Shown here piece after piece: positions 4,202 to 49,362 of a stretch of 55,644 nt of DNA. Position 1 is the first letter of the stretch. Every line of letters begins with the position of its first letter. The notes beneath the pieces were generated by a model. It was not told the origin of the DNA and did no database searches. It saw nothing but the letters and a program-made list of their open reading frames with translations. The stretch spans positions 1 through 55,644 of the forward strand of contig JAUICH010000034.1 in NCBI GenBank assembly GCA_030427505.1, written 5' to 3'. A program made the position numbers and the translations under genes. Origin of the DNA: Verrucomicrobiia bacterium (lineage in GTDB: Bacteria; Verrucomicrobiota; Verrucomicrobiia; Verrucomicrobiales; DEV007).

Positions 4202-4259
4202 GAAGACCGGCCTTCTCAGGTAAAACAAAGCCTTCTCCGCCAGCGGGACGGAGAAGGCT
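4198..4259 (+). terminator. Tandem hairpins after the cupin gene
   Basis: CTGAGAAG/CTTCTCAG (4198-4205, 4212-4219) embraces the cupin stop codon. A second hairpin with an 11-bp stem, AGCCTTCTCCG/CGGAGAAGGCT, follows at 4229-4239 and 4249-4259. The sequence before the second stem is A-rich (TAAAACAAAG), so on the minus strand it is followed by a T-rich run. It can serve as a terminator in either direction, though less typically on the plus strand. Confidence 0.6.
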
Positions 4260-4303
4260 CGGAATAGAATGCGAAGTCGCCGGGACTCTCTTACCCGGCA
4301 AGA

Positions 4304-6255: not shown

Positions 6256-7494
6256 TCAGCCTTGTTGATTGTGAAAGAGTTTGGAGATCCGGTTGACCAG
6301 CCGCTGCTTACTACCAAAATCGCCCGAATACCAGTCCTGGATGAAAGGCGTTAAGTCGTCTTGGCCCGGGTTCAGGAGTCTGATCTCGTTGGCGGCGTTT
6401 TCCGGGGAGTCGCTGGCATGGCCGGCATTGATCATGACGCTTTCGCCAAACTCCCGCCGCACCGTGCCGATGGCGGCCCGAGACGGATCGGTACTGCCTA
6501 GCAGTTGCCGGATGCGGCTCACGGCGTCCGGCCCTTCGAACACCAGCAACAGCAGCGGAGCCGTGCCGGGGGCTTGCCGTTCGGTTTCGTTCTCCACATC
6601 GGCGGAGGTGGCGCCCGCCATGAAGCGGACCAGCTTTTCCCAGTGCTTCCGGCCCATGATGGGGCCGGCGGTTTCACCGAGTTGCTTCCGTTCTTCGTCG
6701 CTGAGTTCGGCGCCGTAGTGTTCCTCGATCAAGTCGCCCAGTTCCCGGGCGAAGGTATCTTTAAAAGACTCCCGCAGCGCGTGTAACACCGGGCCATAGA
6801 ACCGCTCGGCTTCCGCCACGCTCATGTGGTGCAACCGGCAGGCAATCAGGTTCAGCCCTGATTGCGAAAAAACGTCCAGAACCTCGCCAGGCCGCCGGTT
6901 GGGAAAACGAAAATTGTCAGGTTTGATCAGCGCCAGGGTCCGTTCCACGGGCTTGTCGATTTCCCCAGCGGATTGGGGGACATCTTCCAGCAGCCCGCCA
7001 TCGGATTCCGCGAACGCCGTCCACAGCAGCAGGTGTTCCCTGACTTCCTCCGCGGTATTTCCCACGATCAAAGCCGGTTCATAGAACAACGTATTCCCGT
7101 CCGCGTCCGTAATGTGTTCGGCAAAGCTGTCCCGCAGGGTCCGGCCGGATTGAAATTCCGCGCCGGTTTCTCCCGTCAATTTACGGATGCGGTTCACGGC
7201 GTCCGGCCCCCGGAAGACCAGCAACAGAACGCGGTGACGATTCCCCTGCTCCGGATGATTGACAAAATGGGTCCGGATGTAATCGGCCAACAGAAATCGC
7301 CACGTTTCCGGAGAGCTGGAGTGGCTGACTGCTTCCGCGAAGCCTTGGGTGAGCGCTTCGCCTGGCGCGAACATTCTGGCGGCGATACAATCCAGACCGC
7401 TCCGCGAAATCAATCGTGACAAGATGATGCCAGTGCGTGATTTGCGGACCGTGTGTGGCGTCAAGATCGCATAAGCCAGTTCTTCGTCACCCAT
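6256..7494 (-). CDS. Tandem nucleoside-diphosphate-kinase-like protein
   Basis: 412 aa, about three times a normal NDK, made of two NDK-fold units. The second (residues 185-370) keeps ALIKPD (K191), MGRKHWEK, the FEGPDAVSRIRQLLG helix, an R-EFG segment and the active-site loop NAGHASDS with the phospho-accepting His (H359). It carries an insertion between the KPD strand and the GPDAV helix. The first unit (about 5-160) has the parallel VFRGPDAVNRIRKLTG helix but AILTPHT instead of ALIKPD, and no His in the expected loop. It is therefore probably a non-catalytic partner domain. The likely reaction is transfer of phosphate from ATP to other NDPs, if the second domain is active. Confidence 0.82.
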   Translation of the reverse strand: MGDEELAYAILTPHTVRKSRTGIILSRLISRSGLDCIAARMFAPGEALTQGFAEAVSHSSSPETWRFLLADYIRTHFVNHPEQGNRHRVLLLVFRGPDAVNRIRKLTGETGAEFQSGRTLRDSFAEHITDADGNTLFYEPALIVGNTAEEVREHLLLWTAFAESDGGLLEDVPQSAGEIDKPVERTLALIKPDNFRFPNRRPGEVLDVFSQSGLNLIACRLHHMSVAEAERFYGPVLHALRESFKDTFARELGDLIEEHYGAELSDEERKQLGETAGPIMGRKHWEKLVRFMAGATSADVENETERQAPGTAPLLLLVFEGPDAVSRIRQLLGSTDPSRAAIGTVRREFGESVMINAGHASDSPENAANEIRLLNPGQDDLTPFIQDWYSGDFGSKQRLVNRISKLFHNQQG

Positions 7495-8734: not shown

Positions 8735-9586
8735 TCAGTTTGGTTGCGGGCTTACCGGTGTCAGACCAACCCCGTTTGATACCCCGGAATTGGAGCCATT
8801 TCCATTCTCGGAAACGCCTTGAATGAAGTTCTGCACCACTTGGTCAGTGGAATTTCTCAGCTCCTCCGGGGTGCCGAGAAAGTAAATCTTACCTTTTTTC
8901 AAATAAGCCACCCGGTCGGCTACGTGTTGCACGCTCCTCATGTCATGCGTCACCACGATGGACGTCACGCACAACTCCTTCTGCATGCGCAGGATCAGAC
9001 GGTCGATGCTGTCGGAAACCACCGGGTCCAGGCCAGACGTAGGTTCGTCATACAATATACACTCCGGCTGGGTGATGATGGCCCGGGCCAGGGCCGCCCG
9101 CTTCCGCATGCCGCCGGAAATGTTGATCGGCATTTTCGCCATGTGGGCCTCCAACCCCATCAGGGAGAGGGCATGGGTGACTCTTTCCAACAGCTCCTGG
9201 CGCTTCTTGATACCACTCTCCTGCAAGGGGAAGGCCACGTTCTCCGCCACGGTCATGGAGTCGAACAGCGCTCCGTCTTGAAACAGCACGCCGATCTTCT
9301 TCCGGATCGCGCTCATCCGGCGCTCGGGCACGCCGACGATCTCTTCTCCGTCGATCTTGATGCTCCCCTCATCCGGCGTCATCAAGCCGACCAAGTGCTT
9401 TAACAATACACTCTTTCCTTCACCGCTTTGGCCAATGATCACCATGGTTTCCCCCCGGCGAATCGACAAGTCCACCCCATCCAGAATGACCTGAGACCCG
9501 ATCTTTTTCTTCAGGCCTTTTACTTCGATCACCATTTCCCCGTTCTCCGCGCAGGGCTGGCGCTCGGTCTTATCCGGGGATTCCAT
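8735..9586 (-). CDS. mlaF: ABC transporter ATP-binding protein (MlaF)
   Basis: 283 aa cytosolic ATPase of the phospholipid transporter. Walker A GQSGEGKS (52-59) has Glu where Ser is more common. The Q-loop LFQDGALFD, the signature NISGGMRKRAALARA (155-169) and Walker B CILYDEPTSGLDP (176-188) follow. The ISGGM-KRAALARA form is characteristic of MlaF/Ttg2A-type ATPases. The C-terminal tail is short and Ser/Asn-rich. The gene lies between mlaE (37 bp upstream) and mlaD (10 bp downstream), so a single transcription unit is likely. Confidence 0.92.
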   Translation of the reverse strand: MESPDKTERQPCAENGEMVIEVKGLKKKIGSQVILDGVDLSIRRGETMVIIGQSGEGKSVLLKHLVGLMTPDEGSIKIDGEEIVGVPERRMSAIRKKIGVLFQDGALFDSMTVAENVAFPLQESGIKKRQELLERVTHALSLMGLEAHMAKMPINISGGMRKRAALARAIITQPECILYDEPTSGLDPVVSDSIDRLILRMQKELCVTSIVVTHDMRSVQHVADRVAYLKKGKIYFLGTPEELRNSTDQVVQNFIQGVSENGNGSNSGVSNGVGLTPVSPQPN

Positions 9587-9623
9587 AGAGTGAAAATAAA
9601 TCCGGTTTCAGGCATACGGGCTA

Positions 9624-10418
9624 TCAACCCGAACCTAACGGAGACAACTGGTTTAGAAGAAGACTGAGGAAAAAATTAAAAATCAATACGGCCAGGGAAG
9701 CGATTACCACCGCGGAAGTCGTGCCTTTTCCAACACCCACCGCGCCGTTGCTGGCGGTGAGGCCCTGGTGACAGGAAACCAGTACGATCAAGCCCGCAAA
9801 AACGAACCCTTTGATCATGCCGATGCTGATGTCGTAGAGATCCGTGTGGGCTCTGACGTGGTGGGAATACCACGCTTCCGGGATGTGGAAGCCATGCACA
9901 CACATGATTCGCGATGCCAGTATGCCGAAGCCGATGGACTCCGCCACCAGCAACGGCATGGAAAAAAGCAGCCCCACCGCCCGGGGGAGCACCAGGTAGT
10001 CCACTGGATGCACGCCCATGACGCGGAGCGCGTCAATCTGCTCCGTCACCTTCATGGTGCCGATTTCCGCCGCCATCGAAGCCCCCACCCGTCCTGACAC
10101 CATCAGCGCGGTGAGCACCGGGCCCAGTTCCCGGCACATCGCGATGGAAACCACGGCGCCTACGGCCGATTCGATCCCAAAATCGTTAAACTTAAAGTAA
10201 CTCTGCGCCGCGAAGACCGCGCCGGTAAATGCTCCGGTCACGATGACGACCAACTGAGAACCAAATCCGATCGAAACAATCTGACGGCCAATGAGGTGGC
10301 AACGCACCTTCCCGATGAACGGACTGCATACCAAATCCCTCAGCAGGGAAGCCAATTGACCAAGATAACTCAGTCCCACAGACGCCGTTTGGCCCGTTGT
10401 TTGAAGCAGCTTCAGCAT
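9624..10418 (-). CDS. mlaE: ABC transporter permease (MlaE)
   Basis: 264 aa, polytopic inner-membrane protein of the MlaE/Ttg2B family. Recognisable segments are FTGAVFAAQSYFKF, the conserved loop CRELGPVLTALMVSGRVGASMAAEIGTMKVTEQIDALRVMG in the middle (the EQIDAL coupling region), the DYLVLPR segment and the final hydrophobic stretch. It forms the channel through which lipids pass between the inner membrane and the MlaD ring. It is the first gene of the operon, and its 5' end faces carB across a 182-bp divergent intergenic region. Confidence 0.92.
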   Translation of the reverse strand: MLKLLQTTGQTASVGLSYLGQLASLLRDLVCSPFIGKVRCHLIGRQIVSIGFGSQLVVIVTGAFTGAVFAAQSYFKFNDFGIESAVGAVVSIAMCRELGPVLTALMVSGRVGASMAAEIGTMKVTEQIDALRVMGVHPVDYLVLPRAVGLLFSMPLLVAESIGFGILASRIMCVHGFHIPEAWYSHHVRAHTDLYDISIGMIKGFVFAGLIVLVSCHQGLTASNGAVGVGKGTTSAVVIASLAVLIFNFFLSLLLNQLSPLGSG

Positions 10419-10600
10419 GTTCAGCGTTACACCCAGCTTTTTTTCAGTTGAAGAGCCGCACGGTTGCCAATTTGCTTACAAGCATAGGCCGCACCGGTCT
10501 TTTAGCAAAAGAAAGGTCTTTGACTCGGCGAGACGCCTCGCCAGCTTGGTTCTTTACAAGCCGATAGGTCAATGCAAGTAATTCAGCCACATATTGCTCA

Positions 10601-13600
10601 ATGCCCAGGGACACCACGATTGAAAAAATACTGCTAATAGGGTCGGGTCCCATTGTTATCGGTCAGGGTTGCGAGTTCGATTATTCAGGCGTCCAGGCCT
10701 GCAAAGCGCTTTCGGAAGAGGGGTATACGGTGGTGTTGGTGAATTCCAACCCGGCCACCATCATGACCGACCCGGAGTTCGCTGACCGGACTTACATCGA
10801 GCCGATCGACCCGGACATCATCGAACAGATCATTGAGAAGGAGAAGCCGGATGCGCTTCTCCCTACTCTGGGCGGTCAAACGGCCCTCAACGCGGCCATG
10901 GAACTGGCGCGCCGCGGATCGTTGGAAAAGCTGGGCGTTCGCCTCATCGGCGCCAACGCCGAAGCGATCGAAAAAGGGGAAGACCGCCTGCTTTTCAAGG
11001 AAGCGATGCTCAAAATCGGGCTGGACGTGGCCCGCTCCGGCGTGGCTCACAACATGGAAGATGCCCGCAAGATCGCGGAGGAGATCGGGTCCTTTCCCCT
11101 CATTATCCGTCCGGCCTACACCTTGGGCGGATCGGGCGGCGGCATCGCCTACAACCAGGAAGAGTACGAAGACATTGTCTCCGGCGGGCTGGACCTGTCC
11201 CCCGTCAGCGAAGTGCTCGTCGAGGAATCGCTCCTGGGTTGGAAAGAGTTCGAAATGGAGGTCATGCGGGACCGCAATGACAACTGCGTCGTCATCTGCT
11301 CCATTGAAAACTTCGATCCCATGGGGGTGCACACCGGGGACTCCATCACCGTGGCGCCGACGCAGACTTTGACGGACAAAGAGTACCAGCTCATGCGGGA
11401 CGCTTCCTTTGCCGTCATCCGCGAGATCGGGGTGGAGACCGGTGGCTCGAATATTCAGTTTTCGGTGAATCCAGAGAATGGCCGCATGGTGGTCATCGAG
11501 ATGAACCCGCGCGTTTCCCGGTCCTCCGCGCTGGCTTCCAAGGCCACGGGTTTCCCCATCGCGAAAATCGCCGCCAAACTCGCCGTCGGTTACACACTGG
11601 ACGAGTTGCGCAACGACATCACCCGCGAAACCCCGGCCAGTTTCGAGCCCACCATCGACTACTGCGTGGTGAAAATTCCGCGCTTCACCTTCGAAAAATT
11701 CCAGGGCGCCGACACCACGCTGACCACGCAGATGAAAAGCGTGGGCGAGGCCATGGCCATTGGCCGGACCTTTAAGGACGCCATGCAGAAAGCGCTGCGT
11801 TCCTTGGAAACCGGACGCTTTGGCTTTGGCGCCGACGGCAAGGATCCAAAGTCCGAACTGGATCCCGACGAGCTCCGGACCAAGCTGATCGTTCCCAACG
11901 CGGAGCGTATTTTTTACATCCGTCAGGCCTTCCAGGTCGGGATGCGGGTGGAAGATATTCACGAACTGACCAGCATCGATCCCTGGTTCTTGGAAAACCT
12001 GCGCCAGATAGCAGCTGAGGAAGAAAAGATTGCCTCCTCTGGCGCGGAGATCGATTTCCGCCGGGTCAAGCGGCTCGGTTTCTCGGACCGGCAACTCGCC
12101 CACCTGAAAGGACTTTCGGAAACCGAGATCCGGCAACGGCGGAAAAGTCAGGGTGTCGTCCCGACCTACCGGCTGGTGGATACCTGTGCCGCGGAGTTCG
12201 AAGCCTTTACCCCCTACTACTACTCTACCTACGGAGACGAGAACGAATCCCGTGGGGGCGACAGAAAACGGATCATGATTCTTGGGGGCGGACCAAACCG
12301 GATCGGCCAGGGTATCGAATTCGACTACTGCTGCGTCCATGCCTCCTTTGCTCTGAAAGAACTGGGATTCGAAACCATCATGGTGAATTCCAACCCGGAG
12401 ACGGTTTCCACGGACTACGACACCAGCGACAAGCTCTACTTCGAGCCTCTGACCCTGGAAGACGTGCTCAACATCTACGAGCAGGAAGAGTGCTGGGGGG
12501 CTATCGTCCAGTTTGGCGGTCAGACCCCCCTGAACCTCGCGGCGGACCTGGAAAAGAACGGTGTCCGGGTCATCGGAACCTCTCCGCGCAGCATCGAACT
12601 CGCGGAGGACCGGAAGTATTTCAGCGCCCTGTTGGACCGCCTGAACCTGAAACAGGCGCCGGCGGGTACGGCCACTTCGCGGGAGGAAGCCCTGTGCGTG
12701 GCCGAACGCATCGGCTACCCGGTCTTGGTGCGGCCCTCTTTTGTTTTGGGCGGCCGGGCCATGATGATCGTTTATCAGGATGACGAGCTGAGCCACTACA
12801 TGGACACCGCCGTCAAGGCCAGCCCGGAGCGGCCCGTGCTGATCGACCGCTTCCTGGAAGACGCAGTCGAGGTGGATGTGGACTGCATTTCCGATGGCGA
12901 AACCACCGTGGTCGGTTCCATCATGGAACACATCGAAAAAGCTGGCATTCACAGTGGCGACAGCGCCTGCGTGATTCCGCCATTCTCACTTTCCGAAGAG
13001 GTGAAGGGCACCATCATGGACGCGAGCAAGGCGCTGGCTCAGGCCCTCGAAGTTAGCGGTCTGATGAATATCCAGTTCGCGGTCAAGGACGAAGAACTCT
13101 ACGTCATTGAAGTCAACCCGCGCGCGTCCCGCACCGTGCCCTTTGTCAGCAAAGCCATTGGCGTGCCGCTGGCCAAACTGGCCGCCAAAGTCATGGCGGG
13201 GGAAAAGCTGAAGGACCTCGGTTTCACTCAGGAGATTGTGCCGAAGCACTTCTCCGTGAAAGAAGCGGTCTTCCCTTTCTCCAAGTTCCCGGGCGTGGAC
13301 ATCGCCCTGGGTCCGGAAATGAAGTCAACCGGCGAGGTAATGGGTATCGATACCGAAATGGGCATGGCCTTCGCCAAATCCCAGATGGCGGCGTCTTACC
13401 CCTTGCCCCTCTCCGGGAACATCTTTGTCAGCGTTAAGGACAGTGACAAACCGGACGTGGTGGAGATCGCCCGGGACTTCGCTCGCTTGGGTTTCACCAT
13501 CTTTTCGACCTCAGGAACCGCGAAAGCTCTAGACGAGGCTGGCGTCCCCGTTCACCGGCTGCACAAGCTTTCGGAAGGCCGCCCAAACGTGTTGGACATG

Positions 13601-15541: not shown

Positions 15542-16507
15542 ATGGCAGTAACGCAAGTATATTCTTCCGCGGAGTCCGAATTCTCCCGCCCAATGGCCTC
15601 TACGACCCCTATCTCGCTCAAGATCAAAGACCGGGAAATCCGGTTTCCCCGCCGTCCTCTCGTTATGGCGGTTGTAAATATCAATGACGATTCGTTCTGC
15701 GGAGACGGCACCTTGGACCCCACGGAGGCGCTCTCCCAAGCCCGGGACGCGCTCCGCAGCGGGGCGGACGTCATTGACGCCGGCGCGGAATCCGCCCGCA
15801 CCAACCGGGGTCCCATTTCGCCAGAGGAGGAAATCGCCCGTCTGTTGCCTTTCATTCGGGCGTTTCCAGCCCTGGTGGCGGAATTTTCGGGACCGCCTCT
15901 GGACTCGGAGCAGCTCTGGCCGCCGCTGCTTTCCATCAATACCTGGAGACCGGAAGTGGTCGAGGGCGTGTTGGGAGAAGGCGGCGATCTCCTTAACGAC
16001 ATGGGAGGCCTGCCGGACAGCCGGAACGCCCGTCTCTGTGCCGCCCATGGCGCGGCTCTGCTGATCATGCACACCGTGGGATTGCCCAAGGTACCCCACA
16101 CTGGACAGCAGTACGCGGACGTTTGCGGGGCCCTGGAGGACTTCTTCGCGGAAAAACTCGCCCTGGCTTCAGAGGCCGGCCTGGATCCCCAAGCCACGCT
16201 GTTGGACCCGGGCATCGACTTTGCCAAGCAGCGAGACGACAACCTGAAGGTCTATCGCGACTTGGAACGAATCGTCGCCTTCAACCGGCCGGTCCTGGTG
16301 CCGGTTTCCCAGAAAACGGTCATCGGGGACGTGCTGAACCTGCCCGATCCCAGAGAAAGAGACGCCGGGACGGTGGCCTGCCTGACCCGGGGAGTAGTGG
16401 CGGGCGCTCAACTCTTCCGGGTGCACAACGTCCCCGCCGCAGTCCAGACCATCAAGACGCTGTGGGCACTGGAGCACTGCCCAGCTCCCTCAACTGCTGG
16501 AGGCTAA
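15542..16507 (+). CDS. Divergent dihydropteroate synthase-like protein
   Basis: 321 aa TIM-barrel of the DHPS family and a paralogue of the canonical folP at 29109-29954. Motifs align in order but are altered: AVVNINDDSF (canonical ILNVTPDSF), GADVIDAGAES (GADIIDIGGES), INTWRP (IDTSK), LLNDMGG (IINDVTG), LLIMHT, LLDPGIDFAKQRDDNL (LDPGIGFGKTLEHNL), PVSQKTVIGDV (GVSRKSFIGKV) and RVHNV (RVHDV). Loss of Arg in the SRK loop and Thr/Pro in the first loop makes normal pABA chemistry doubtful. Related pterin-binding proteins exist in other families. GGGGA lies five bases before the ATG. The last 56 bp overlap the convergent HAD gene. Confidence 0.75.
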   Translation: MAVTQVYSSAESEFSRPMASTTPISLKIKDREIRFPRRPLVMAVVNINDDSFCGDGTLDPTEALSQARDALRSGADVIDAGAESARTNRGPISPEEEIARLLPFIRAFPALVAEFSGPPLDSEQLWPPLLSINTWRPEVVEGVLGEGGDLLNDMGGLPDSRNARLCAAHGAALLIMHTVGLPKVPHTGQQYADVCGALEDFFAEKLALASEAGLDPQATLLDPGIDFAKQRDDNLKVYRDLERIVAFNRPVLVPVSQKTVIGDVLNLPDPRERDAGTVACLTRGVVAGAQLFRVHNVPAAVQTIKTLWALEHCPAPSTAGG

Positions 16508-29108: not shown

Positions 29109-29954
29109 TCATGCCACCCCGTGCAGGATGGCTTCCGTCATGCGCAGAGCTTCCCGGTTCGCCTGCACGTCGTGAACGCGAAAGATCCGGACCCCGCGTT
29201 CCCGGGCGTGGGAGGTGAGCGCCACGGTCGGCCAGAAACGGCTCTCCAAGTCGTCGGTCCCGAGCACTTTTCCGATGAAGGACTTCCTTGAGACACCGAG
29301 CAGCAGGGGGCAACCCAGGGTCTCCAGGGCCGGGAGCCGCCGGAGCAGTTCCAGGTTGTGCTCCAAGGTCTTGCCGAACCCGATACCGGGGTCCAGCACC
29401 ACCTGTTCGCGCCGGATTCCGGCGGCTTCGGCCCGTTCCAGTTGCTGTTGGAGAAAATCGCGGACTTCCCCAACCACGTCGTCATATTCCGGATTCTGCT
29501 GCATGGTGCGCGGCTTTCCCCGCATGTGCATGATGACCACGCCCGCGCCGGTTTGCTGGACGGCCTCGATCATTTCCGGATCGCCCGTCAGACCGGTGAC
29601 GTCGTTGATGATCTGGACCCCGGCCTCACAGGCAACGAGGGCCACCGCGCTCTTGGAGGTATCGATGGAGAGCAATGCTTCCGGATAGCGTTCCAGGATG
29701 CCGCGAATGACGGGTAGCGTGCGCGCAATTTCCACGTCCTCGGGCACTTCGTCCGCTCCGGGCCGGGTGGATTCGCCCCCGATATCGATGATGTCCGCGC
29801 CTTCCTCTATCAATTCGCAGGCGTGAGCGACCGCGGCTTCCGTGTCGAGAAACTGGCCGCCGTCGGAAAAGGAGTCGGGCGTGACGTTCAGGATGCCCAT
29901 GATTAGGCCGCGTTGGCTCAGGTCGAGTTCGCGGTCTTGGAAGTTCCAGTTCAT
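29109..29954 (-). CDS. folP: Dihydropteroate synthase
   Basis: 281 aa, canonical. The motifs GILNVTPDSFSDGG, IDIGGESTRPGA, SIDTSKS, IINDVTG, VVIMHMRGKPRTMQ, VLDPGIGFGKTLEHNL, GVSRKSFIG and RVHDV are all intact. It joins pABA to the pterin pyrophosphate to give dihydropteroate in folate synthesis. It opens the operon that continues with cdaA, the CdaR-like gene, glmM and bioD. A second, divergent family member lies at 15542-16507. Confidence 0.97.
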   Translation of the reverse strand: MNWNFQDRELDLSQRGLIMGILNVTPDSFSDGGQFLDTEAAVAHACELIEEGADIIDIGGESTRPGADEVPEDVEIARTLPVIRGILERYPEALLSIDTSKSAVALVACEAGVQIINDVTGLTGDPEMIEAVQQTGAGVVIMHMRGKPRTMQQNPEYDDVVGEVRDFLQQQLERAEAAGIRREQVVLDPGIGFGKTLEHNLELLRRLPALETLGCPLLLGVSRKSFIGKVLGTDDLESRFWPTVALTSHARERGVRIFRVHDVQANREALRMTEAILHGVA

Positions 29955-39985: not shown

Positions 39986-41542
39986 GTGCCCAGACCCCTG
40001 AAATATCTTCTCTGGTTTCTCGTGGCCTTGGTGGGATTGGTCGCGATCTACTACCAGATCGCCAATTGGGCGGGTCGGCGGGCCTGGGCCAAAACGCAGG
40101 CTGAGTTGCGGGCGGCAGGGGAGCCAGTGACTCAAGGGGAGTGGGCGGCCCGCTTTCCGGTGGTGCCACCGGAGGACAACTTCTGTGCCATCGATTTACT
40201 GCGAGGCGTGACCGAGGTGGAAGATGGAGACGAATTCTCAGGCGAATCCGCGGAAAAGAGACAGCGGTTGGAGGAATTGGATGCGCGAAAGTATTTCGAA
40301 GAACACTTTGAGAGCGAAGATGTCCCCAGACTGGGAAATTTCCGTTCCGGTATCGAGTGGAGCCTGAGTGGTTCCGAATCGAATCCAAACGGCGGCCCAA
40401 AAGAAAATGCCTTGAAGCAAACGACCGAGGAAAGAGTCGCCAGCTACTTGGATGAATTTGAAGATGTGTTCGTCGAGTTGGATGAGTCCAATCATCGGCG
40501 CCATGCGGTGTTTGTGCCGGCGGCCGGGGGAACTTTGGATCGCGAGAGCATATCCCTGCTCTCGCCGGCTCCCTTCCCCAAGGCCATGTTGAGTCTTCAC
40601 TTCGGACTGGGGTTGAGAATGTTTGCGGCCCTGGACCGTGGTGACGGAGAGACTTGCCGGCAGAGCGTGATTACGTTGCTCAGGCTGGCGGAGGCAAACG
40701 CCAATGAACACAGGTCCATGGCCACGATCTGCAGCATCCTTCAGATGCGGATGGCGGACGACGGGCTATTCAGGTATTTGAACGGCAAGTGGTATACTGG
40801 TGAGGAGGACCTAGGGGACCTTTCCGTTGCACTGAATAGGTTGAACTACCGGGAGACGTTCAGAGAGATCACGAGAACCGAATGGGTCGTGGGAACCGAA
40901 TGTCTCACTTGGTTTCAGCGGTCAACTCCGTCGAATGGTTACAGGTGGCCAACCTTGGACGATGTCTATGTTTGGGGGCCCTCGGGTTGGATCGATCAGA
41001 ATAAGGCAAATCTCTGCCGGATGTATTATTCCGGAGTGATGAAACCTGATGAGGAATCCGGGCGTGGGTTTCTGGGAATCCAAAGACGAACTGAAGAGAA
41101 TGTCAGCAAAGTGCTGAAAGCGAAAAGTTGGTGGAATCCGTGTTATGCGGGAGCGGCTATCTTTGCGGAATCCACGGCTACGTGTTTGGAGCCGGTGGCT
41201 TATGCAGAGACGATTCGCGTTCAGGACCTCACAGCTTTGACTTTGGAGTACTATCTTCTAAGAAGGGGCGAGTATCCGGAAGGATTGGAGGAACTGCCAA
41301 GCGAGTTCCTAATCGAACCGCCATTGGACCCCATGGATGGGCAAGTCATGCGCTACCGCAAGACGGCAAACGGATACCTGCTGTATTCGGTAGGCTGGGA
41401 TGGAGTGGACGATGGAGGCGCAGTCGATCCGGGTTCCCAGGGAGCGGGCAAGCCTTCGATCGCCAGTTTTGACTACAAAGGGGATTGGGTTTGGGAAATC
41501 AAACGCAATAAAAGGGATAACCAAAATGCAGAGAAGCCCTAG
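39986..41542 (+). CDS. Paralogue 1 of a membrane-anchored family of unknown function
   Basis: 518 aa from a GTG. A transmembrane helix (about 6-28) precedes a GRRAW-KTQAELRAAGEPVT stretch and VPPEDNFCAIDLL. The middle is helical, with LVMADDG-like segments (MADDGLFRYL) and the shared GPSGWIDQNKA motif. The C terminus reads PLDPMDGQVMRYRKTANGYLLYSVGWDGVDDGG and YKGDWVWEIKR, a pattern reminiscent of pseudopilin GspG-like C termini (DPxxxxxxYxYxxxxxxYxLxSxGxDG). No enzyme domain is recognised. It is the first of three tandem copies, 147 bp after trpB and 8 bp before the next copy. Confidence 0.72.
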   Translation: MPRPLKYLLWFLVALVGLVAIYYQIANWAGRRAWAKTQAELRAAGEPVTQGEWAARFPVVPPEDNFCAIDLLRGVTEVEDGDEFSGESAEKRQRLEELDARKYFEEHFESEDVPRLGNFRSGIEWSLSGSESNPNGGPKENALKQTTEERVASYLDEFEDVFVELDESNHRRHAVFVPAAGGTLDRESISLLSPAPFPKAMLSLHFGLGLRMFAALDRGDGETCRQSVITLLRLAEANANEHRSMATICSILQMRMADDGLFRYLNGKWYTGEEDLGDLSVALNRLNYRETFREITRTEWVVGTECLTWFQRSTPSNGYRWPTLDDVYVWGPSGWIDQNKANLCRMYYSGVMKPDEESGRGFLGIQRRTEENVSKVLKAKSWWNPCYAGAAIFAESTATCLEPVAYAETIRVQDLTALTLEYYLLRRGEYPEGLEELPSEFLIEPPLDPMDGQVMRYRKTANGYLLYSVGWDGVDDGGAVDPGSQGAGKPSIASFDYKGDWVWEIKRNKRDNQNAEKP

Positions 41543-41550
41543 ATTGAGAA

Positions 41551-43107
41551 ATGCCGAAACCCCTCAAGTATTTCCTGATTTTTCTGGCCGTCGTCTGCGC
41601 GATGGTGGTGGGCTACTATCAGTTTGCCAACTACGCCGGCCGCAAGGCGTGGGCGGAGACCCAGGCCAAGCTGAAGGCCGCCGGCGAACCCGTTACGCGG
41701 GAAGAATGGCTGAGCCGGAAAGTGAAAGTTCCGCCGGAAGAAAACTTCGGCGCGGTGGAGCCTTTGCTTGGAATCGCCGAAGTCATCAATGGCGATCCGG
41801 ATGCTGGCGAACCAGGGGCGAAGCGGCAGCGCTTGAGCGAATGCAATCCATTGGAAAAAGTGAAAGGCTCCCAGGTGGATCTGCCGATTGCTGTCAGTTT
41901 CCGCGCGGGGGGCTCTTTTGATCTGCTAGGATGGGCGGAGGTTTTCTCCAAGACGGACGTCTTTGAGGAAGGCGAACCGGTTCCTGAAGATCCCGTGGCG
42001 GTTTTAAGAAAGGTTCTGGAGCCAAACCAGGAGATTCTGGAAGCTTTACACAAAGGAAATACGCGGCCACATGCCCTCCTTGAACCGCCAATAGCGACGC
42101 GTTTCAAAAAAGAGGAAGAATGGATCAGTTTGGCGCTGCCGCACTTTTCATGCATCCTCGGCGTGGCAAAGGCCCTGCGTTTTCATTGGGCCATGGCCAC
42201 GGCGCGGGAAGATGGCGCTGAAGTGCTGAAGTGCCTGGTTACCCTGATGCGGCTGGCGGAACTGTCTAACAATGACGATACCCTAATCGGCTCGATGGTC
42301 GGCGCTTCAGTAGTCGCTATGACCGATGACGGTGTGCATTCATTCCTAGAAGAGGGCCGGTATCAAAGAGTTCAGGATCTTCGGGCAATAGGATCGGTCG
42401 CGCGGAAACTGAAAGCTTCCATGACGCTGGCGGAGAGGTTTCGGTTCGAGTGTTTGTTTGTGGAAGAGGCGTTGGATAAATTGGGTTCCGAACACAGCCC
42501 ATATTCAGCTATCAATGACTATCGAGAGTATCTGTACCGGTATGGTCCTTCCGGTTGGATCGATCAAAACAAAGCAGCATTTTGGGATGCAATCTATTAC
42601 TCCATTATCGAACCGGAAGAGAGAGGTCTCGGGTATGCGGCTATCGATAAACGTTGTAAAGAGACTGTGGCAACCTTCAATCGAAGTGGCGGGTGGATTA
42701 ACCCACATACTATGTTCGCGAGGGAAAGTTTTGGTGCTTATACCAGAATAAGCTTTGAACTGATCTACTCCAGGACGCTCGTGACCCAATGGATCACCGC
42801 GATTGAGTTGGAGCTATACTATCTTCAGAATGGGAAGTATCCGCCTTCTTTGGATGAACTGATAGATGAGAATAGAATTGAACTTCCCCACGATGAGATG
42901 GGTCAGCAAGCCATGCGGTATAGAAGAACGGAAGGTGGCTATCTTCTCTATTCCATAGGCGCGGACGGCACAGATGATGGCGGTAAGGTGTCTCTCGATT
43001 CAACTCACCCGGAGCGGACGCGCTTTCTGGATGAGAAGTACAAAGGCGACTGGGTCTGGGAGATCCACCGGACCGGCAGCCGTGAGCTGGAGGGTGAGAA
43101 TCCCTGA
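41551..43107 (+). CDS. Paralogue 2 of the same membrane-anchored family
   Basis: 518 aa. The transmembrane start reads MPKPLKYFLIFLAVVCAMVVGYYQFANYAGRKAW, followed by AGEPVTREEW and VPPEENFGAVEPLLGIAEVINGDPDAGEPG. A MTDDGVHSFLEEG segment, GPSGWIDQNKA, a LDELIDENRIELPHDEMGQQAMRYRRTEGGYLLYSIGADGTDDGG tail and YKGDWVWEIHR mark the family. It is adjacent to copies 1 (8 bp) and 3 (8 bp from the stop to ATG 43116), so the three are almost certainly one transcript. The sequence is clearly diverged from copy 1, showing that the duplication is old. Confidence 0.72.
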   Translation: MPKPLKYFLIFLAVVCAMVVGYYQFANYAGRKAWAETQAKLKAAGEPVTREEWLSRKVKVPPEENFGAVEPLLGIAEVINGDPDAGEPGAKRQRLSECNPLEKVKGSQVDLPIAVSFRAGGSFDLLGWAEVFSKTDVFEEGEPVPEDPVAVLRKVLEPNQEILEALHKGNTRPHALLEPPIATRFKKEEEWISLALPHFSCILGVAKALRFHWAMATAREDGAEVLKCLVTLMRLAELSNNDDTLIGSMVGASVVAMTDDGVHSFLEEGRYQRVQDLRAIGSVARKLKASMTLAERFRFECLFVEEALDKLGSEHSPYSAINDYREYLYRYGPSGWIDQNKAAFWDAIYYSIIEPEERGLGYAAIDKRCKETVATFNRSGGWINPHTMFARESFGAYTRISFELIYSRTLVTQWITAIELELYYLQNGKYPPSLDELIDENRIELPHDEMGQQAMRYRRTEGGYLLYSIGADGTDDGGKVSLDSTHPERTRFLDEKYKGDWVWEIHRTGSRELEGENP

Positions 43108-43115
43108 ATGTTGTG

Positions 43116-44651
43116 ATGCCGAAACCTCTCAAGTATCTCCTTTTCTTCCTGGCCGCCGTCTCCGTGATGGTGGTGGGGTATTACCAGTTTGCCAACTGCG
43201 CCGGCCGGCGGGCTTGGAAACATGCCAGGGCGGAACTGACCGAAAAGGGAGAGCCGGTTACGAGGCCGGAATTGAAGGCCCGATTGATATCTTCCGTAGC
43301 CCCGGAGCGAAACTTTTGCGCGGTTTCTCCGCTGGATGGAATCGCCGTGGTTGTTGAGGGCGACCCCGAGGCGGGGGCGCCCGCGATGAAACGGAAGAAG
43401 CTGGAAGCCCTCCTCCCGCCGGACCAGGAGAGTCCGATTCCACCAGCGGGCGACTTCAGAGCTGACCGGAATTGGGACTTCGAAGCCTGGGGAACTTACC
43501 TGGAAACGAACGTGGCGGTCAGCCTGCCTCTTTCCGCGGAAAGCCCGATGGAAAAACTCGGCGAGATACTCGAAAGGGACGCCTGGCTCTTCGACGCACT
43601 GGACGAGGCGAATGATCGTCCGGAAGCCATCTTCTTGCCGTCCGCGCTTCAAAGCATGAGAGACGATGGTTCGGACCCCTTCCGCTTTGCGTTGCCCCAT
43701 GCCGGGGCGATGCACCGGGTCGCCGCCATGCTGGAGTTGAGGGCAGCTTTTTCCGTCCGCCAAGGGAAGGAAGTGTCTTGCAGGGAAAGCCTGATCTCGC
43801 TCTATAGGGTTGCCGAGGCGGAGATGAATCAAAAGACCTGGATGAATCTCCTTCTCGGTCAGACCGCATTGGACCGGGCGGACGATCCTCTCTATCGCTA
43901 TTTGAAGAGGAGCCTCTATGAGAGCGATCAAGACCTGGCGGATCTGAACGAGGCCCTCGCGAAACTGGATCTCGCCCATTCCTTCTGTGAAGCCACCCGG
44001 ACGGAATGCGTGGCTTTTGTCACCACGGAAGAAGAGGTGGAAGAGATCGATTGCCGTCTGAGCGATGCCGAGAAGTGGGCGCTTAACTGGGGTCCGTCCG
44101 GATGGGTGGACCAGAATTGCGCGAACTATTGCAATGTATTGCAGTCGGTCATCGGCCGCGAATCGGCAGGACTAGCGGAAATGCTGAGTAGCCTAAAGTC
44201 AGAACAAAGAAAGTTCAGCAAGCGCTTCCTGGGGAACTGGCACCACGTTTGGATGGCACGGAGAGGCTGGGCCGTGGCGGAATCGGTACTGCGGGGTTCC
44301 CTCTACAGCGAAGCCTTGAGGCGGCAGCAACTTGCCGCCATCGCGCTGGAAAGGCATCGTTTGAAGACCGGCGGCTATCCGGTGTCCTTGCCGGAACTGG
44401 ATCGACAATTTGTAGTGGGACCGCTGCTGGATCCCATCGACGGTCAGCCGTTGCGTTACCGAAGGACACCCGCCGGCTACATGCTCTACTCCATCGGTTT
44501 CGACCGGTCAGACGACGGAGGGAACACCCCTTTGACTCCTAAGAAAGAGAAAGCACGGAAATATGTGCCGCCGTTCCGTTCACCTGACTACCGTGGAGAC
44601 TGGGTCTGGGAGATGAAGCGAGAAACGGAAGCCGCCGTTTCGGGTGAGTAA
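43116..44651 (+). CDS. Paralogue 3 of the same membrane-anchored family
   Basis: 511 aa from ATG 43116 (a GTG sits just before it at 43113). The N-terminal anchor MPKPLKYLLFFLAAVSVMVVGYYQFANCAGRRAW is the one closest to copy 2. The family markers are GEPVTRPELKARL, PERNFCAVSPLDGIAVVVEGDPEAGAPAMKRKKLEALL, RADDPLYRYLKRS, GPSGWVDQNCA, and PLLDPIDGQPLRYRRTPAGYMLYSIGFDRSDDGG followed by YRGDWVWEMKR. In the Cys/Asn position of GWVDQNCAN it differs from the other three copies, which have GWIDQNKA. Function unknown. Confidence 0.72.
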   Translation: MPKPLKYLLFFLAAVSVMVVGYYQFANCAGRRAWKHARAELTEKGEPVTRPELKARLISSVAPERNFCAVSPLDGIAVVVEGDPEAGAPAMKRKKLEALLPPDQESPIPPAGDFRADRNWDFEAWGTYLETNVAVSLPLSAESPMEKLGEILERDAWLFDALDEANDRPEAIFLPSALQSMRDDGSDPFRFALPHAGAMHRVAAMLELRAAFSVRQGKEVSCRESLISLYRVAEAEMNQKTWMNLLLGQTALDRADDPLYRYLKRSLYESDQDLADLNEALAKLDLAHSFCEATRTECVAFVTTEEEVEEIDCRLSDAEKWALNWGPSGWVDQNCANYCNVLQSVIGRESAGLAEMLSSLKSEQRKFSKRFLGNWHHVWMARRGWAVAESVLRGSLYSEALRRQQLAAIALERHRLKTGGYPVSLPELDRQFVVGPLLDPIDGQPLRYRRTPAGYMLYSIGFDRSDDGGNTPLTPKKEKARKYVPPFRSPDYRGDWVWEMKRETEAAVSGE

Positions 44652-44832: not shown

Positions 44833-46425
44833 ATGAAAAAAGGCCTCCTCGTTACTCTCATCGTCCTACTCTTCCTGGCTGGCGCGGGCTGGGCCGCCGC
44901 CACCTGGGTCATCGGCACCGGGTCGGAAGGCGGTTTCGAAAAGTCTCTCAATGACATGAATGCTCAGTTCGCCACCGTGGGGCTGAGGCTGGAGCGCGAG
45001 TCCTTCCAGCGCGGCTTTCTGACCAGCGAGGGCATTGTGAAAATAGACGTCCCCAGCCCGATGATGACTGAAGAGGACGCCGACAAGGGCCTGCGGCTGA
45101 AGGCGAAAATCTGGCACGGGCCCCTGATGTTTACCCCAGACGGCCCAAAGGCCGGTTTTCACCACCTGGAGCTGACGATGGTTCCTTCCAGCCTGGAGCC
45201 TGACCTCCAGGCTTCCCTGGAGGAAGCCCTCGGCGGGGAAGAGGACTTGTTCGTCGTGAAAACCTGGTCCGGCCTGGATGGCAAGGTGAGCGCCGCCTTC
45301 ACCGTCGCGCCCCTGTCCTGGAAGGAAGAGGGAGCCAGCGGTAAGGGCAAGATGGAATTTTCCGGCGCTTCCGGCACCCTGACCGGCCTGTCGGAAAAGC
45401 CCGGCGGGAAAGGGGAGATCGTGATCGGCAGTCTGAAAGGGTCCCAACCTGAGACGGGGTTCAACGCGGAGATCGCGGAAAGCCGGATGGAGTTGGACGT
45501 GGCGCCCGGCGCGAGCGAGCACTCGAACGGCACGGGCTACGCGCTGTACGAACTGCCGTCGGTGAAAATCTCCGAATCGGGCAACACGTATTTCGTGCAG
45601 AACGTGTCGTTCCGTTATGACATGGACGAAGACGCAGAGGGCCGCATGGAGGCGGGCTACACGTTCAAGGTCGGGAAGGTCACCGCGCCGGAAACCAGCG
45701 GCTTCCCCGTCGCGGCCGTGGTGGGAAAGGGCGGCACCTTTACCTATGGCTTTAAGGGTGTGCGCCCGCAGGAAGTGGAGGCGTTTAACGAAGCGCTCCG
45801 GGACCTTCAGACCTGGCAGATGAATCAGATGGCGGAAGGGAATCTCGGCGCCGCGATGGAAGGAAATCCCGAGAAGACGGAGGCGGTCGCCAAGACGCTG
45901 CTGAGCCTTTTCCAACCGGGGCTCAGTCTGTCCGCCAGCCTTCTCCTCCAGGGCGCCCAGGGCAATGCCAAGGCTACCCTGGAACTGGCCTACACGGCGG
46001 ACAAGCCTCTCTCGGAACAGAAAACGCTGGGGGACACCATCCGGGCCTTTGGTGGAGAGATCTCCTTCCGGATGAGCAAAGCCATCCTGCCACCGGAACT
46101 GGCCATGCAGGTCATGGCCGTCCCGCTGCAGAGCGGTTTCATCGTGGAAGACGCCACGGAATACAAAGGCGAGTTCCAGCTTGCCCAGGGCGAAACCACG
46201 CTAAACGGCCAGGAGGTGCCTCTTCTGGAGAGCTTCGGTCCCGCGTTGGAGGAAGAAATCCCGTGGGATGACGTCATCAGGAGCAGCACGATGGGCGGCT
46301 TGCCACTCCCGGGCGGCGACGCGGATCCCACGGGCGGGTTGGACGGCGAAAGCGGTTCCGGCCCCATGCCGGGCGAACCAGGTGCGCCTGCCTCGGATCC
46401 CGCTCCGGACTTTCCCCAGCAGTAG
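44833..46425 (+). CDS. DUF945 (YdgA-like) envelope protein
   Basis: 530 aa. A transmembrane or signal segment at residues 4-26 (LLVTLIVLLFLAGAGWAAATWVIG) precedes a large domain typical of the DUF945/YdgA family, with alternating beta-rich segments and a long middle part. The C terminus is disordered and rich in Gly, Pro, Ser and Asp. In E. coli YdgA is an inner-membrane-anchored protein of unknown function. It lies 181 bp after copy 3, and a run of three hairpins begins 56 bp after its stop. Confidence 0.75.
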   Translation: MKKGLLVTLIVLLFLAGAGWAAATWVIGTGSEGGFEKSLNDMNAQFATVGLRLERESFQRGFLTSEGIVKIDVPSPMMTEEDADKGLRLKAKIWHGPLMFTPDGPKAGFHHLELTMVPSSLEPDLQASLEEALGGEEDLFVVKTWSGLDGKVSAAFTVAPLSWKEEGASGKGKMEFSGASGTLTGLSEKPGGKGEIVIGSLKGSQPETGFNAEIAESRMELDVAPGASEHSNGTGYALYELPSVKISESGNTYFVQNVSFRYDMDEDAEGRMEAGYTFKVGKVTAPETSGFPVAAVVGKGGTFTYGFKGVRPQEVEAFNEALRDLQTWQMNQMAEGNLGAAMEGNPEKTEAVAKTLLSLFQPGLSLSASLLLQGAQGNAKATLELAYTADKPLSEQKTLGDTIRAFGGEISFRMSKAILPPELAMQVMAVPLQSGFIVEDATEYKGEFQLAQGETTLNGQEVPLLESFGPALEEEIPWDDVIRSSTMGGLPLPGGDADPTGGLDGESGSGPMPGEPGAPASDPAPDFPQQ

Positions 46426-46684: not shown

Positions 46685-46801
46685 TCGATCTCGTTCAAAT
46701 GGCATTGCCGCCGGCAAAGCCAGGCTCGATTTTCTTGAGGGATTTTAAAAGAATTCCCGGACGGGATGCGTCGTCATGGGTAGGGCGGAAAGTACGGGCC
46801 A

Positions 46802-47368
46802 ATGGCGAAGGGAAAGGGCCCCGCCCGGAAAGAATTCATAGGCATGAAACTGGAGGAAGTGGAGGCGCTGTATGACGGGCACGCGGAAGCGCTCTATCGC
46901 TACCTGTTTAGCCTGTCCATGAATCCGTGCGAGGCGCGGGACTTATTGCAGGAGCTTTTCGTGAAAGTATTGCGGCCATCCAAGGGGGTCCGGCGCGCGG
47001 CGAATCCCCGGGCTTTCTTGCTCCGCATGGCGAGAAATCTTTGGATCGACAACCGGAGGCGAAACGCGGCCTACCGGCGCGCGGTGAACGGATACCGGAG
47101 CGAACAAGATAGGGAGTTGTTTGAGGCTTCCAACGATCCGGACACTCAAGCCTTTCGGAAAGCCCTCAGCGCGGCCTTGGCCCAACTGCCGGAGGAGCAA
47201 CGCGAAGCCGTGTATCTGAATCTTTGGGAAGGAATGACGTTCGCCGAGGTCGCGGAGCAGCAGGCAGCCTCGGTGAATACGGTGATTAGCCGTTACCGCT
47301 ACGGTATTGAGAAACTTCAAGCTTTGTTAGGGCCGGTATATCAGGAGCTTTGCCATTCAGAACGATGA
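46802..47368 (+). CDS. ECF-type RNA polymerase sigma factor
   Basis: 188 aa, or 174 from ATG 46844. Region 2 (about 18-90) has LYRYLFSLSMNPCEARDLLQELFVKVLR and ANPRAFLLRMARNLWIDNRRR, the core-binding and -10 recognition parts. Region 4 (about 118-180) has LAQLPEEQREAVYLNLWEGMTFAEVAEQQAASVNTVISRYRYGIEKLQ, the -35 recognition helix-turn-helix. It directs RNA polymerase to a small regulon. Its stop codon overlaps the next start, ATGA, so it is coupled to the small membrane protein that follows. Confidence 0.9.
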   Translation: MAKGKGPARKEFIGMKLEEVEALYDGHAEALYRYLFSLSMNPCEARDLLQELFVKVLRPSKGVRRAANPRAFLLRMARNLWIDNRRRNAAYRRAVNGYRSEQDRELFEASNDPDTQAFRKALSAALAQLPEEQREAVYLNLWEGMTFAEVAEQQAASVNTVISRYRYGIEKLQALLGPVYQELCHSER

Positions 47369-47772
47369 AAGATACGGGAGAAATTCCTAAGGAAAACGAA
47401 GGCTCGGAAAACCGTTTTGTGGAGCGGCTCAAGAGCCAGTCTCTGGGCGCCCTGCCTCCCGAGTGGAAGGAAGAGATCCTTGCAATTGAGCCTGGTCATC
47501 AAGCCAATCGGTCTTTTCCACACATCCTTACCGGGTGGCTAAGCGAATGGTTTCCGAAGCCGGTGCTGGTACCGCTTCTGGCGGTTTGGGGGGTCATTAT
47601 GGTGCTGTATGGGATGAACCGGACGGAGCGCGGAGCGGACGCGGGCCTGCCCAATAATCTGGCGGGTACCGAATCGCTAAAGCCAGAACCAGTGGTGGTA
47701 GGTCCTTCTCTTTGGATCGAACGAGAAAGATTGCTCGCCCTGGGTGAAATGCCCTGGAGTTTTGAACCCTAA
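47365..47772 (+). CDS. Small single-pass membrane protein, candidate anti-sigma
   Basis: 135 aa from ATG 47365, overlapping the sigma-factor stop by four bases. The cytosolic N terminus (about 1-70, charged) precedes one transmembrane helix (PKPVLVPLLAVWGVIMVLYGM, about 73-91). A short outer segment ends in GPSLWIERERLLALGEMPWSFEP. This layout is that of many ECF anti-sigma factors, although no zinc-binding HxxxCxxC is visible. The role is inferred from position and topology. The fourth paralogue begins 15 bp later. Confidence 0.65.
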   Translation: MKDTGEIPKENEGSENRFVERLKSQSLGALPPEWKEEILAIEPGHQANRSFPHILTGWLSEWFPKPVLVPLLAVWGVIMVLYGMNRTERGADAGLPNNLAGTESLKPEPVVVGPSLWIERERLLALGEMPWSFEP

Positions 47773-47787
47773 CTAACCCACCAAGAA

Positions 47788-49362
47788 ATGGTTAAACGAA
47801 GCAGGAAAAGAACGGTCTTGAAGATTCTTCTATGGGGATCTGTGAGCCTGATATCACTGATTGTGTTGCTGGTGCAGGTAGAGAATTGGCGCGGCAGACG
47901 TGTATGGAACGAAGTGCGGCAGAAGCTTGAAGACGCGGGCGAACCCGTGGCGGCGCAAGACTTGGTGGCCCGCGTCCCGCACGTCCCGGACGCGGAAAAC
48001 TTTGGTGCGATCGAGGCTCTCAAGGGAATTGCCATGGTAGTTGAAGACGACCCAGACAAGGGCGAACCGGGCCGGATTCGGGAGCGTTTGCAGGCAGTGA
48101 ATGTGCACGCGCACTTCGGCGAACCGAGGTCAGGCTACCAAACGCCGAAAGCGGGGAATTATCGGGTGGGCCGGAAGTGGAACTTTGAGGCCTGGGCGGC
48201 GTATCTGTTGGATGAGGCAGCTTTCAAGGAGGCGGAGGTACAAAGAGACGCAAAGGCGATCGTTGGAAAGTTTCTTGAATCTCACGAAGACCTATTTGCC
48301 GAATTGGACTCCGCGAACGGGCGGGCGAAGGCGGTTTTTGTCCCAACTATACTGGAAGCGACACCGAAAGATCGGATGCTGATCTCGATGATATTTCCGC
48401 ATGGGAGTCCAGTGATAGCGCTAATCCGGGCACTCGGTCTTCGGGCGGCACTGGCGGCGGAAACGGTAGATGGGGAGGTCTGTCAGGAGAGTCTGATGAA
48501 CATGGTACGCCTTTCTGAAGCCATGGCGAACGAGCGGACGCTGATTAGTGTCTTAATTAGTGTGAGTTCGCTGCTCATGGCGGATGATGGACTGCACCGT
48601 TTTCTGGAGGACCAGCTATATCAGAACGATGCGGAGCTCGTGGAACTTTTCGATGCAATAGGAAACTTGGACTATGCCGTTGCCTTGGATGAGGCGGCCA
48701 GAACAGAGTGGGTCTACCTCGTGGATTCGATGAATTGGTTCGTTAAGATGAGGAAGCAGAAAGGTGGACTGCCGAAGGAGTGGAGCAACGAAATGGGTTT
48801 CTTTCGTTGGATGCCCACGGGATGGATCGATCAGAACAAGGCCCTTTCATGCCGGATCTTATCTTCAGTGGTGAATCGGGACGAAAGCCTCTATCCTGGT
48901 CTTCTCGGGATGCGCACCTTGTTTGAGTCTGAAATGGATGAACTGCAACGGCGGAAAGCCAGATTCGATCCCACGGCAATTATTGCCTCGGTTCAACTAC
49001 CCTACATGGAGAAGGTCATTGGGAACGTAGCCTATGGCGAAGCCGTGCGGGCCCAAATGGAGACCGCGGTGGCTTTGGAACGATACCACTTGGCAAATGA
49101 CGAATACCCGGAGACGCTGGATGTCCTGGAGCCAAGATTCATTCGGGAGATTCCTCTGGATCCGGTGGATGCTCAGCCGATGCGCTATCAGAAAACAGAG
49201 GGGGGTTATCTGCTATATTCCATCGGCATGGATAGAGTGGATGACAGTGGCGCCGTTACTCTGGATGATAAGAAGTCCGAAAAGAGCGCTTTCTACTTTT
49301 CGAAAGACGACTACAAAGGCGACTGGGTCTGGGAGATTAGCCGGAGTCAGCAGGACCGCTAG
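47788..49362 (+). CDS. Paralogue 4 of the membrane-anchored family, in the sigma operon
   Basis: 524 aa, clearly related to copies 1-3: a transmembrane start (VLKILLWGSVSLISLIVLLVQVENWRGRRVWNEV), GEPVAAQDLVARVPHVPDAENFGAIEALKGIAMVVEDDPDKGEPG, MADDGLHRFLEDQ, MPTGWIDQNKA, IPLDPVDAQPMRYQKTEGGYLLYSIGMDRVDDSG and YKGDWVWEISR. It has MPTGW where the others have GPSGW. It follows the ECF sigma and the putative anti-sigma, so the family is likely to be expressed in one sigma-controlled unit here. The stop TAG (49360-49362) lies in a CTAG that is the left edge of a MITE. Confidence 0.73.
   Translation: MVKRSRKRTVLKILLWGSVSLISLIVLLVQVENWRGRRVWNEVRQKLEDAGEPVAAQDLVARVPHVPDAENFGAIEALKGIAMVVEDDPDKGEPGRIRERLQAVNVHAHFGEPRSGYQTPKAGNYRVGRKWNFEAWAAYLLDEAAFKEAEVQRDAKAIVGKFLESHEDLFAELDSANGRAKAVFVPTILEATPKDRMLISMIFPHGSPVIALIRALGLRAALAAETVDGEVCQESLMNMVRLSEAMANERTLISVLISVSSLLMADDGLHRFLEDQLYQNDAELVELFDAIGNLDYAVALDEAARTEWVYLVDSMNWFVKMRKQKGGLPKEWSNEMGFFRWMPTGWIDQNKALSCRILSSVVNRDESLYPGLLGMRTLFESEMDELQRRKARFDPTAIIASVQLPYMEKVIGNVAYGEAVRAQMETAVALERYHLANDEYPETLDVLEPRFIREIPLDPVDAQPMRYQKTEGGYLLYSIGMDRVDDSGAVTLDDKKSEKSAFYFSKDDYKGDWVWEISRSQQDR

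Follow-up and report, generated by a model that had tools for sequence, protein, structure and literature searches.

The closest described counterpart of the locus analysed here is the CnrYXH system of Cupriavidus metallidurans. In excerpts of two papers (PMC4598750, PMC7406223), CnrY is described as a pair of helices clasping CnrH, with CnrX acting as the metal sensor that switches the system. An excerpt of a third paper (PMC8103513) describes PDZ as a known envelope-stress sensing module in DegS. The window studied here is a whole stretch of 55,644 nucleotides from a Verrucomicrobiia bacterium (contig JAUICH010000034.1). It carries four genes of one membrane-anchored protein family, termed FAM. 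The fourth of them, FAM4, follows an extracytoplasmic function (ECF) sigma factor gene and a small membrane-protein gene, termed SMALL. We propose that FAM4 is probably the extracytoplasmic sensor of a trans-envelope sigma/anti-sigma relay that works like CnrYXH. The features of this operon are as follows.

46746..46773, + strand: promoter-like site, sigma-dependent, with the sequence TAAAAGAA-N13-TGCGTCG, 28 bp upstream of the start codon (ATG) of the sigma gene.
46802..47368, + strand: ECF sigma factor of 188 amino acids (aa); Sigma70_r2 E 7.8e-12, Sigma70_r4_2 E 4.7e-11.
47365..47772, + strand: SMALL, 135 aa with one hydrophobic segment, a putative anti-sigma factor; its start overlaps the sigma stop (ATGA).
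47788..49362, + strand: FAM4, a putative sensor of 524 aa, encoded third in the sigma operon.
48961..49362, + strand: GspG-like C-terminal domain of FAM4 (residues 392-524 and stop), a predicted fold.

The sigma factor scored above the Pfam cut-offs in both regions (region 2, 45.3 bits, cut-off 24; region 4, 42.6 bits, cut-off 25.7), and only 15 bases separate SMALL from FAM4. The 6.4-Mb genome gave 36 Sigma70_r2 matches, and an ECF group already assigned to sigma factors of this kind may exist. The initial annotation of the FAM array had mentioned neither the sigma gene nor the gene for the small membrane protein immediately 5' of FAM4. It had also missed that part of the family is encoded in ECF sigma operons, from which a likely role for FAM follows.

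To count this linkage, open reading frames (ORFs) were called in the gathered loci and scored for FAM, ECF sigma and SMALL. ORFs that did not span the FAM model were dropped, which left 106 full-span FAM ORFs (104 distinct, two being truncated duplicates of window copies), and 11 of the 106 with less than 1 kb of upstream sequence were set aside, leaving 95 assessable. An ECF sigma gene was located upstream on the same strand, within 1.1 kb, in 30 of the 95, and these ORFs were spread over 12 family codes, with the window counted in f1. SMALL was present in 28 of the 30 linked modules. The remaining two, L048 and L088, have no separate SMALL that matches the profile: in L048 it is fused to FAM, and in L088 the ORF in the gap (120-133 aa) has a hydrophobic segment but stays below the SMALL profile threshold. 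In a subset of loci, a sigma gene lay upstream of 13 of 64 FAM ORFs versus 6 of 293 other ORFs of at least 250 aa; there the FAM ORFs were not deduplicated and 14 loci had been chosen for SMALL or sigma matches. Because the sigma model was trained on the sigma factors of these same loci, other kinds of sigma can be missed. In genus code g24, FAM genes without a sigma gene were also seen at a conserved position beside apparent rpoA and rplQ (L044, L045) or rpoA (L046), these neighbours being named by eye.

FAM itself is widespread. With a 22-member profile (E<=1e-10) it was found in 52 of 74 genomes from the family of the window and in at least 109 of 387 sampled Verrucomicrobiota genomes; the second count is a lower bound, at most three candidates having been scored per genome in the phylum-wide search. 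All named relatives obtained by pattern search (7 loci) were Verrucomicrobiota.

SMALL has the layout of an anti-sigma factor: it is located directly 3' of the sigma gene and has a single predicted transmembrane segment and a short predicted cytoplasmic N terminus. The SMALL profile was built from one seed, and its rows are 27 proteins from the gap between sigma and FAM. In 21 of the 27 there is one segment with a Kyte-Doolittle value of 1.6 or more, and the other six peak at 1.11-1.57. Lysine and arginine residues number 76 before the hydrophobic segment versus 42 after it. Two short conserved stretches, FExxL and PxxWRxxIL, precede the membrane segment. The window SMALL gave no naming match in Pfam, NCBIfam, PADLOC or PHROGs.

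In two genomes the SMALL and FAM parts are joined in one ORF after the sigma gene. In L048 (G007) a 523-aa ORF (9131-10702) has an N terminus that matches SMALL (E 6.4e-5) and is FAM in the rest. In L228 (G021) an ORF at 3965-4501, which ends at the contig end, matches both SMALL (6.1e-8) and FAM (3.8e-16). On visual inspection both contain a single hydrophobic segment, which is expected of an anti-sigma factor with its own ectodomain. The two are 35% identical over 131 columns, so that they perhaps descend from a single ancestral fusion. Six further apparent fusions (L066, L068, L075, L101, L107, L156) were rejected as non-coding read-through before the true FAM start.

Sister modules with the order sigma, SMALL and a third gene were found in L220, L222, L223, L224 and L230. 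In the four modules scanned with Pfam (L220, L222, L224, L230) a PDZ protein is encoded third, and this supports a role in sensing for the third slot. No Pfam match was obtained for the third protein of L225, and the module in L221 is incomplete. The slot after SMALL thus takes different, probably extracytoplasmic, proteins. SMALL-like proteins with a hydrophobic segment were also seen after an apparent dnaG and rpoD in the window's own genome (L219:4380-4859, C43; E 9e-5) and after an apparent dnaG end in G420 (L229:3185-3580; E 3.5e-5), the neighbours again being named by eye. A membrane anti-sigma factor for a housekeeping sigma would be surprising.

Trees of both families were built quickly, without bootstrap, and have long branches. 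In the sigma tree (66 rows), one clade with a Shimodaira-Hasegawa-like approximate likelihood ratio test (SH-aLRT) support of 99 held 29 of the 30 FAM-linked rows (all but L070), the window sigma, the L228 sigma and the sigma factors of the sister modules; the 27 rows of other sigma factors from the same genome fell outside it. In the FAM tree (104 rows), the sigma-linked rows were scattered over several groups and required at least 11 changes; the midpoint root leaves all of these groups on its 71-row side. The same groups recurred in the two trees when compared by eye.

A promoter motif was recovered upstream of the module sigma genes. By plain count, ACAAA-N15-CGTC was present in 13 of 29 sigma upstream regions, where shuffled sequences reached 3. 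The two-block model derived from that seed, TAGACAAA-N13-TGCGTCT, had a total score of 564 over the 29 upstreams versus 308-332 in three mononucleotide shuffles, and the best sites of 24 of the 29 scored at least 16.7, all with a spacing of 13. This motif or a diverged form lies upstream of 25 of 31 module sigma genes. The window site at 46746-46773 scored 18.0, second in the window. Ahead of the other 27 sigma genes in the genome no site scored above 10.9, and ahead of the PDZ-type and remaining non-FAM modules none scored above 15.4. The top match of the model in the window (20.6; 3252-3279, - strand) lies antisense inside a sulfatase-like gene at 2243-3727, named by eye, and is perhaps due to chance.

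When the 31 modules (79.8 kb) were scanned, 38 sites scoring at least 14 were found in sense versus 6 in antisense orientation. Twenty-five of the 38 are the upstream sites used to train the model. The other 13 comprise eight in the 3' end of the sigma gene, two just before FAM (L076, L088) and three inside FAM; both sites of L088 carry an unusual GTTGTCA. The exact -35 block is found in seven of the eight sites at the sigma 3' end. At that position ten loci encode Leu/Ile-Asp-Lys, and seven of these ten, a base not picked by the motif, use CTA, TTA or ATA, which gives the -35 block; L040, L041 and L155 encode the tripeptide without an xTA codon. Among Leu codons alone, xTA accounts for 25 of 609 in the sigma and FAM genes of those seven loci. 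The seven fall in two clades and are therefore not seven independent events.

The strict pattern had 18 exact matches in 25 genomes, 14 of them in FAM modules by coordinates and four elsewhere, and the reversed control pattern had 16 in the same genomes. A search allowing one mismatch in 12 genomes gave no genome-wide excess (104 sites versus 192 for the control). In the present genome the own-type motif occurred exactly once, and allowing two mismatches gave three sites versus one for the control. The reversed pattern has a different codon bias, so that these comparisons are rough. A larger regulon was considered and rejected, as the site searches showed no excess outside the modules. Because the exact sites are mostly in FAM modules and the one-mismatch search gave no excess, we read the circuit as one that would be autoregulated and nearly private to its own operon.

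The proposed relay would work as follows. The ECF sigma factor (46802-47368) would be kept inactive by SMALL, whose N-terminal segment of about 60 residues would lie in the cytoplasm and whose single helix would pass through the membrane. FAM4 would have its anchor in the inner membrane and expose a helical solenoid and the GspG-like domain on the outside, and it would touch SMALL and pass a signal to it. The freed sigma factor would then activate its own promoter, yielding more sigma factor, SMALL and FAM. FAM1-3 could serve as further sensors in trans or have diverged in role. The computation shows the recurring operon order, the co-occurrence of SMALL, the two fusions, the conserved promoter motif and the predicted folds. 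We infer that SMALL would be the anti-sigma factor and bind the sigma, and that FAM would be the sensor and bind SMALL, together with the topology, signalling direction and ligand of the relay.

Several observations weigh against this reading. Sixty-five of the 95 assessable FAM ORFs, FAM1-3 included, have no adjoining sigma gene, and SMALL is rarer than FAM in the window's family (24 versus 52 of 74 genomes; SMALL at E<=0.01 with at most 60 candidates scored per genome). Among 73 unlinked FAM genes scanned there was no excess of sigma sites (two sense versus one antisense at a score of at least 15). The promoter site of the window itself has diverged from the motif, six of the 31 modules have no upstream site (three of these upstreams being short, missing or with N), the best site upstream of the fusion L228 sigma reached only 10.7, and the L070 sigma falls outside the module sigma clade. 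No anti-sigma family was found at E<=1 in a Pfam scan of eight SMALL proteins, and no anti-sigma factor was among the matches of the SMALL profile to solved structures. The topology of SMALL is predicted from hydropathy and charge. The likeness among SMALL proteins is partly by construction, the independent finds being L226, L048, L228 and the non-FAM modules.

The main rival reading, which we consider unlikely, makes FAM the output: the switch would consist of sigma and SMALL alone, and FAM would be what it chiefly produces, a scaffold or a protein that protects the envelope. In its favour, 14 of the 18 exact sigma sites lie in FAM operons, one mismatch gave no genome-wide excess, the own-type motif occurs once in this genome, the frequent second promoter could serve SMALL and FAM alone, and 65 of the 95 assessable FAM genes have no sigma. 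The SMALL-FAM fusions of two genomes, however, agree better with a sensor ectodomain. Autoregulation of an anti-sigma gene along with its sigma is common, and a private promoter is therefore compatible with a sensor. The sigma may also have a looser regulon.

The model of FAM4, with a predicted local distance difference test score (pLDDT) of 83.8 and a predicted template modelling score of 0.86, has a long N-terminal helix, a helical body, and then a long helix with three strands. The last 133 residues modelled alone gave a pLDDT of 85.6. In VIA-align this domain matched PulG (1t92) with Z 9.1 and a root-mean-square deviation of 2.2 A over 88 aligned residues at 23% identity. The next four matches were also GspG (Z 8.0-8.7), and the first 24 of 26 were pilins or pseudopilins, the last two having Z 2.4 and 2.2. 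Foldseek on the domain alone was weak, with no E below 0.24, and GspG was not among the 50 matches listed for the whole FAM4 model. For the remaining ectodomain, Foldseek and VIA-align returned designed and generic helical repeats with Z<=9, which we did not take as kinship to any solenoid family. At the sequence level, T2SSG was the only Pfam family found in more than one of 22 FAM members (10 of 22 at E<=1, best E 4.6e-4), and the best solved chain in the profile search was the GspG XcpT (2kep, E 0.0025). The likeness of the C terminus to pseudopilins had been suggested in the initial annotation, together with a comparison of the predicted structure with GspG, and both the PulG match and the T2SSG matches agree with it. 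A calcium-type loop, sought with the crude pattern G-x-[DN]..[DNES][DEN], was present in 66 of 105 rows, and FAM4 itself fails the pattern; this is not decisive for calcium binding.

These matches to GspG are what would be expected if FAM were a component of a type II secretion system (T2SS) or pilus, that is, a divergent pseudopilin. We regard this as very improbable. The N termini of the window copies have no prepilin-type cleavage motif, and in the FAM4 model the anchor helix spans residues 2-49 and the long helix of the GspG-like domain starts from residue 405, about 350 residues after the anchor. Three T2SSG proteins above the cut-off are encoded elsewhere in the genome; only FAM2 was listed among the window copies, below the gathering score (12.5 bits in the genome-wide search). 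No T2SS gene was recognised beside FAM in the window, among those neighbours that were scanned. FAM thus lacks the N terminus of a pseudopilin and, among the scanned neighbours, also the gene context of one. That FAM lies near sigma genes by mere chance of gene order, with no bearing on its role, hardly deserves credence: two thirds of the assessable FAM genes have no sigma nearby, but the linkage recurs in 12 family codes with a constant middle gene, fusions and second promoters.

The sensor proposed for the sigma operon has three paralogues upstream, separated from the operon by one further gene.

39986..41542, + strand: FAM1, 518 aa, GTG start; N-terminal anchor, ectodomain and GspG-like C terminus by alignment with FAM4.
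41551..43107, + strand: FAM2, 518 aa; matched weakly by T2SSG of Pfam (E 0.3; 11.6 bits against a cut-off of 21).
43116..44651, + strand: FAM3, 511 aa, or 512 aa if the start is the GTG at 43113.
44833..46425, + strand: DUF945 protein (PF06097, E 7.2e-36), between the FAM1-3 array and the sigma operon.

The ORFs, the alignment and a profile bear out the earlier description of four genes of one family. The four copies, 35-38% identical, align end to end (alignment A1); FAM2-4 share 35-37% of residues with FAM1, and 90 columns spread over the length are invariant. The A1 profile found exactly four FAM in the 6.41-Mb genome (E 3.6e-258 to 1.8e-245, the same four copies being rows of the profile), and on these values a likeness by chance is excluded. 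No match above any cut-off was obtained with Pfam or NCBIfam, in line with the description of the proteins as membrane-anchored and of no assignable family. The shared motifs that had been listed are present and yet not identical in every copy: the central motif is GPSGWIDQNKA in FAM1 and FAM2, GPSGWVDQNCA in FAM3 and MPTGWIDQNKA in FAM4; GEPVT of FAM1-3 is GEPVA in FAM4; PLDPxDGQ is altered in FAM2; and YKGDWVWE is YRGDWVWE in FAM3. In the FAM tree the four copies group together (SH-aLRT 100) and FAM4 branches as sister of FAM1-3 (SH-aLRT 93); they therefore arose within this lineage as sampled. The array had been taken as maintained and not recently duplicated; the strong divergence agrees with this, but the duplications belong to the lineage itself. 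The best reading is that FAM1-3 are old lineage-specific paralogues of FAM4.

Control of the FAM1-3 array by the sigma factor was rejected, as no site upstream of 39986 or 44833 was among the 25 best sites of the window. No DUF945-like ORF (E<=1e-5) was found near FAM in the loci of other genomes gathered at that stage, and the DUF945 protein is therefore probably not a conserved part of the FAM system. A defence origin and a phage origin of the locus were also rejected, with no PADLOC match among seven window proteins and no PHROG match among three proteins.

Elsewhere in the window, a 412-aa protein with three nucleoside diphosphate kinase stretches (PF00334) is encoded at 6256-7494 on the - strand. 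Two Pterin_bind genes of the dihydropteroate-synthase type are located within 15 kb of each other, at 15542-16507 (+ strand, weaker score) and 29109-29954 (- strand). A two-partner-secretion domain protein at 3-833 (- strand) runs off the window end.

It is possible, although on the whole doubtful, that the module represents a self-contained envelope switch of a new class, widespread in Verrucomicrobiota, made of a near-private ECF sigma factor, a new minimal anti-sigma family and a pseudopilin-headed sensor. If so, the head could attach to the T2SS or pilus machinery, be bound by it, or bind calcium as GspG does, and in this way the switch would read the secretion state. Tandem FAM copies would widen what is read, with PDZ proteins occupying the same slot in the sister modules. 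A large family without assignment would gain a role, and a three-part system with its promoter would make ECF signalling testable in a little-studied phylum. Among the matches listed from open-access titles and abstract starts, none described FAM, SMALL, a pseudopilin-like anti-sigma partner or a sigma switch whose outer part is a pilin-type domain.

The RsiV and RsgI systems resemble the fused proteins of L048 and L228 as single-pass proteins with an anti-sigma-like N terminus and an ectodomain. The ectodomain and the N-terminal segment differ, however, and the other linked modules keep two separate genes. GspG (PulG, EpsG), the major pseudopilin of the T2SS, is comparable in the predicted fold of the last 133 residues of FAM4; unlike GspG, FAM has no prepilin-type N terminus, carries the domain on a solenoid and is encoded in a sigma operon. 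The sigmaE-RseA-RseB system with DegS likewise has an ECF sigma factor, an inner-membrane anti-sigma factor and an additional periplasmic protein, and the PDZ domain of DegS, as the excerpt of PMC8103513 presents it, is comparable to the PDZ proteins in the third slot of the sister modules. In contrast to that system, SMALL has no anti-sigma domain recognised by Pfam and FAM is membrane-anchored by prediction. The CnrYXH system, as excerpted, offers a sigma factor, an anti-sigma factor with a short two-helix part that binds the sigma, and a separate periplasmic sensor. FAM, at about 500 aa with a solenoid and a GspG-like domain, differs from CnrX; no metal-efflux target was seen here, SMALL has no sequence match to solved anti-sigma factors, and two genomes fuse the anti-sigma-like part with the FAM part. 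The gene order and predicted anchors would fit a separate anchored sensor beside a minimal anti-sigma factor, and the two conserved stretches of SMALL before its membrane segment may correspond to the two-helix part of CnrY.

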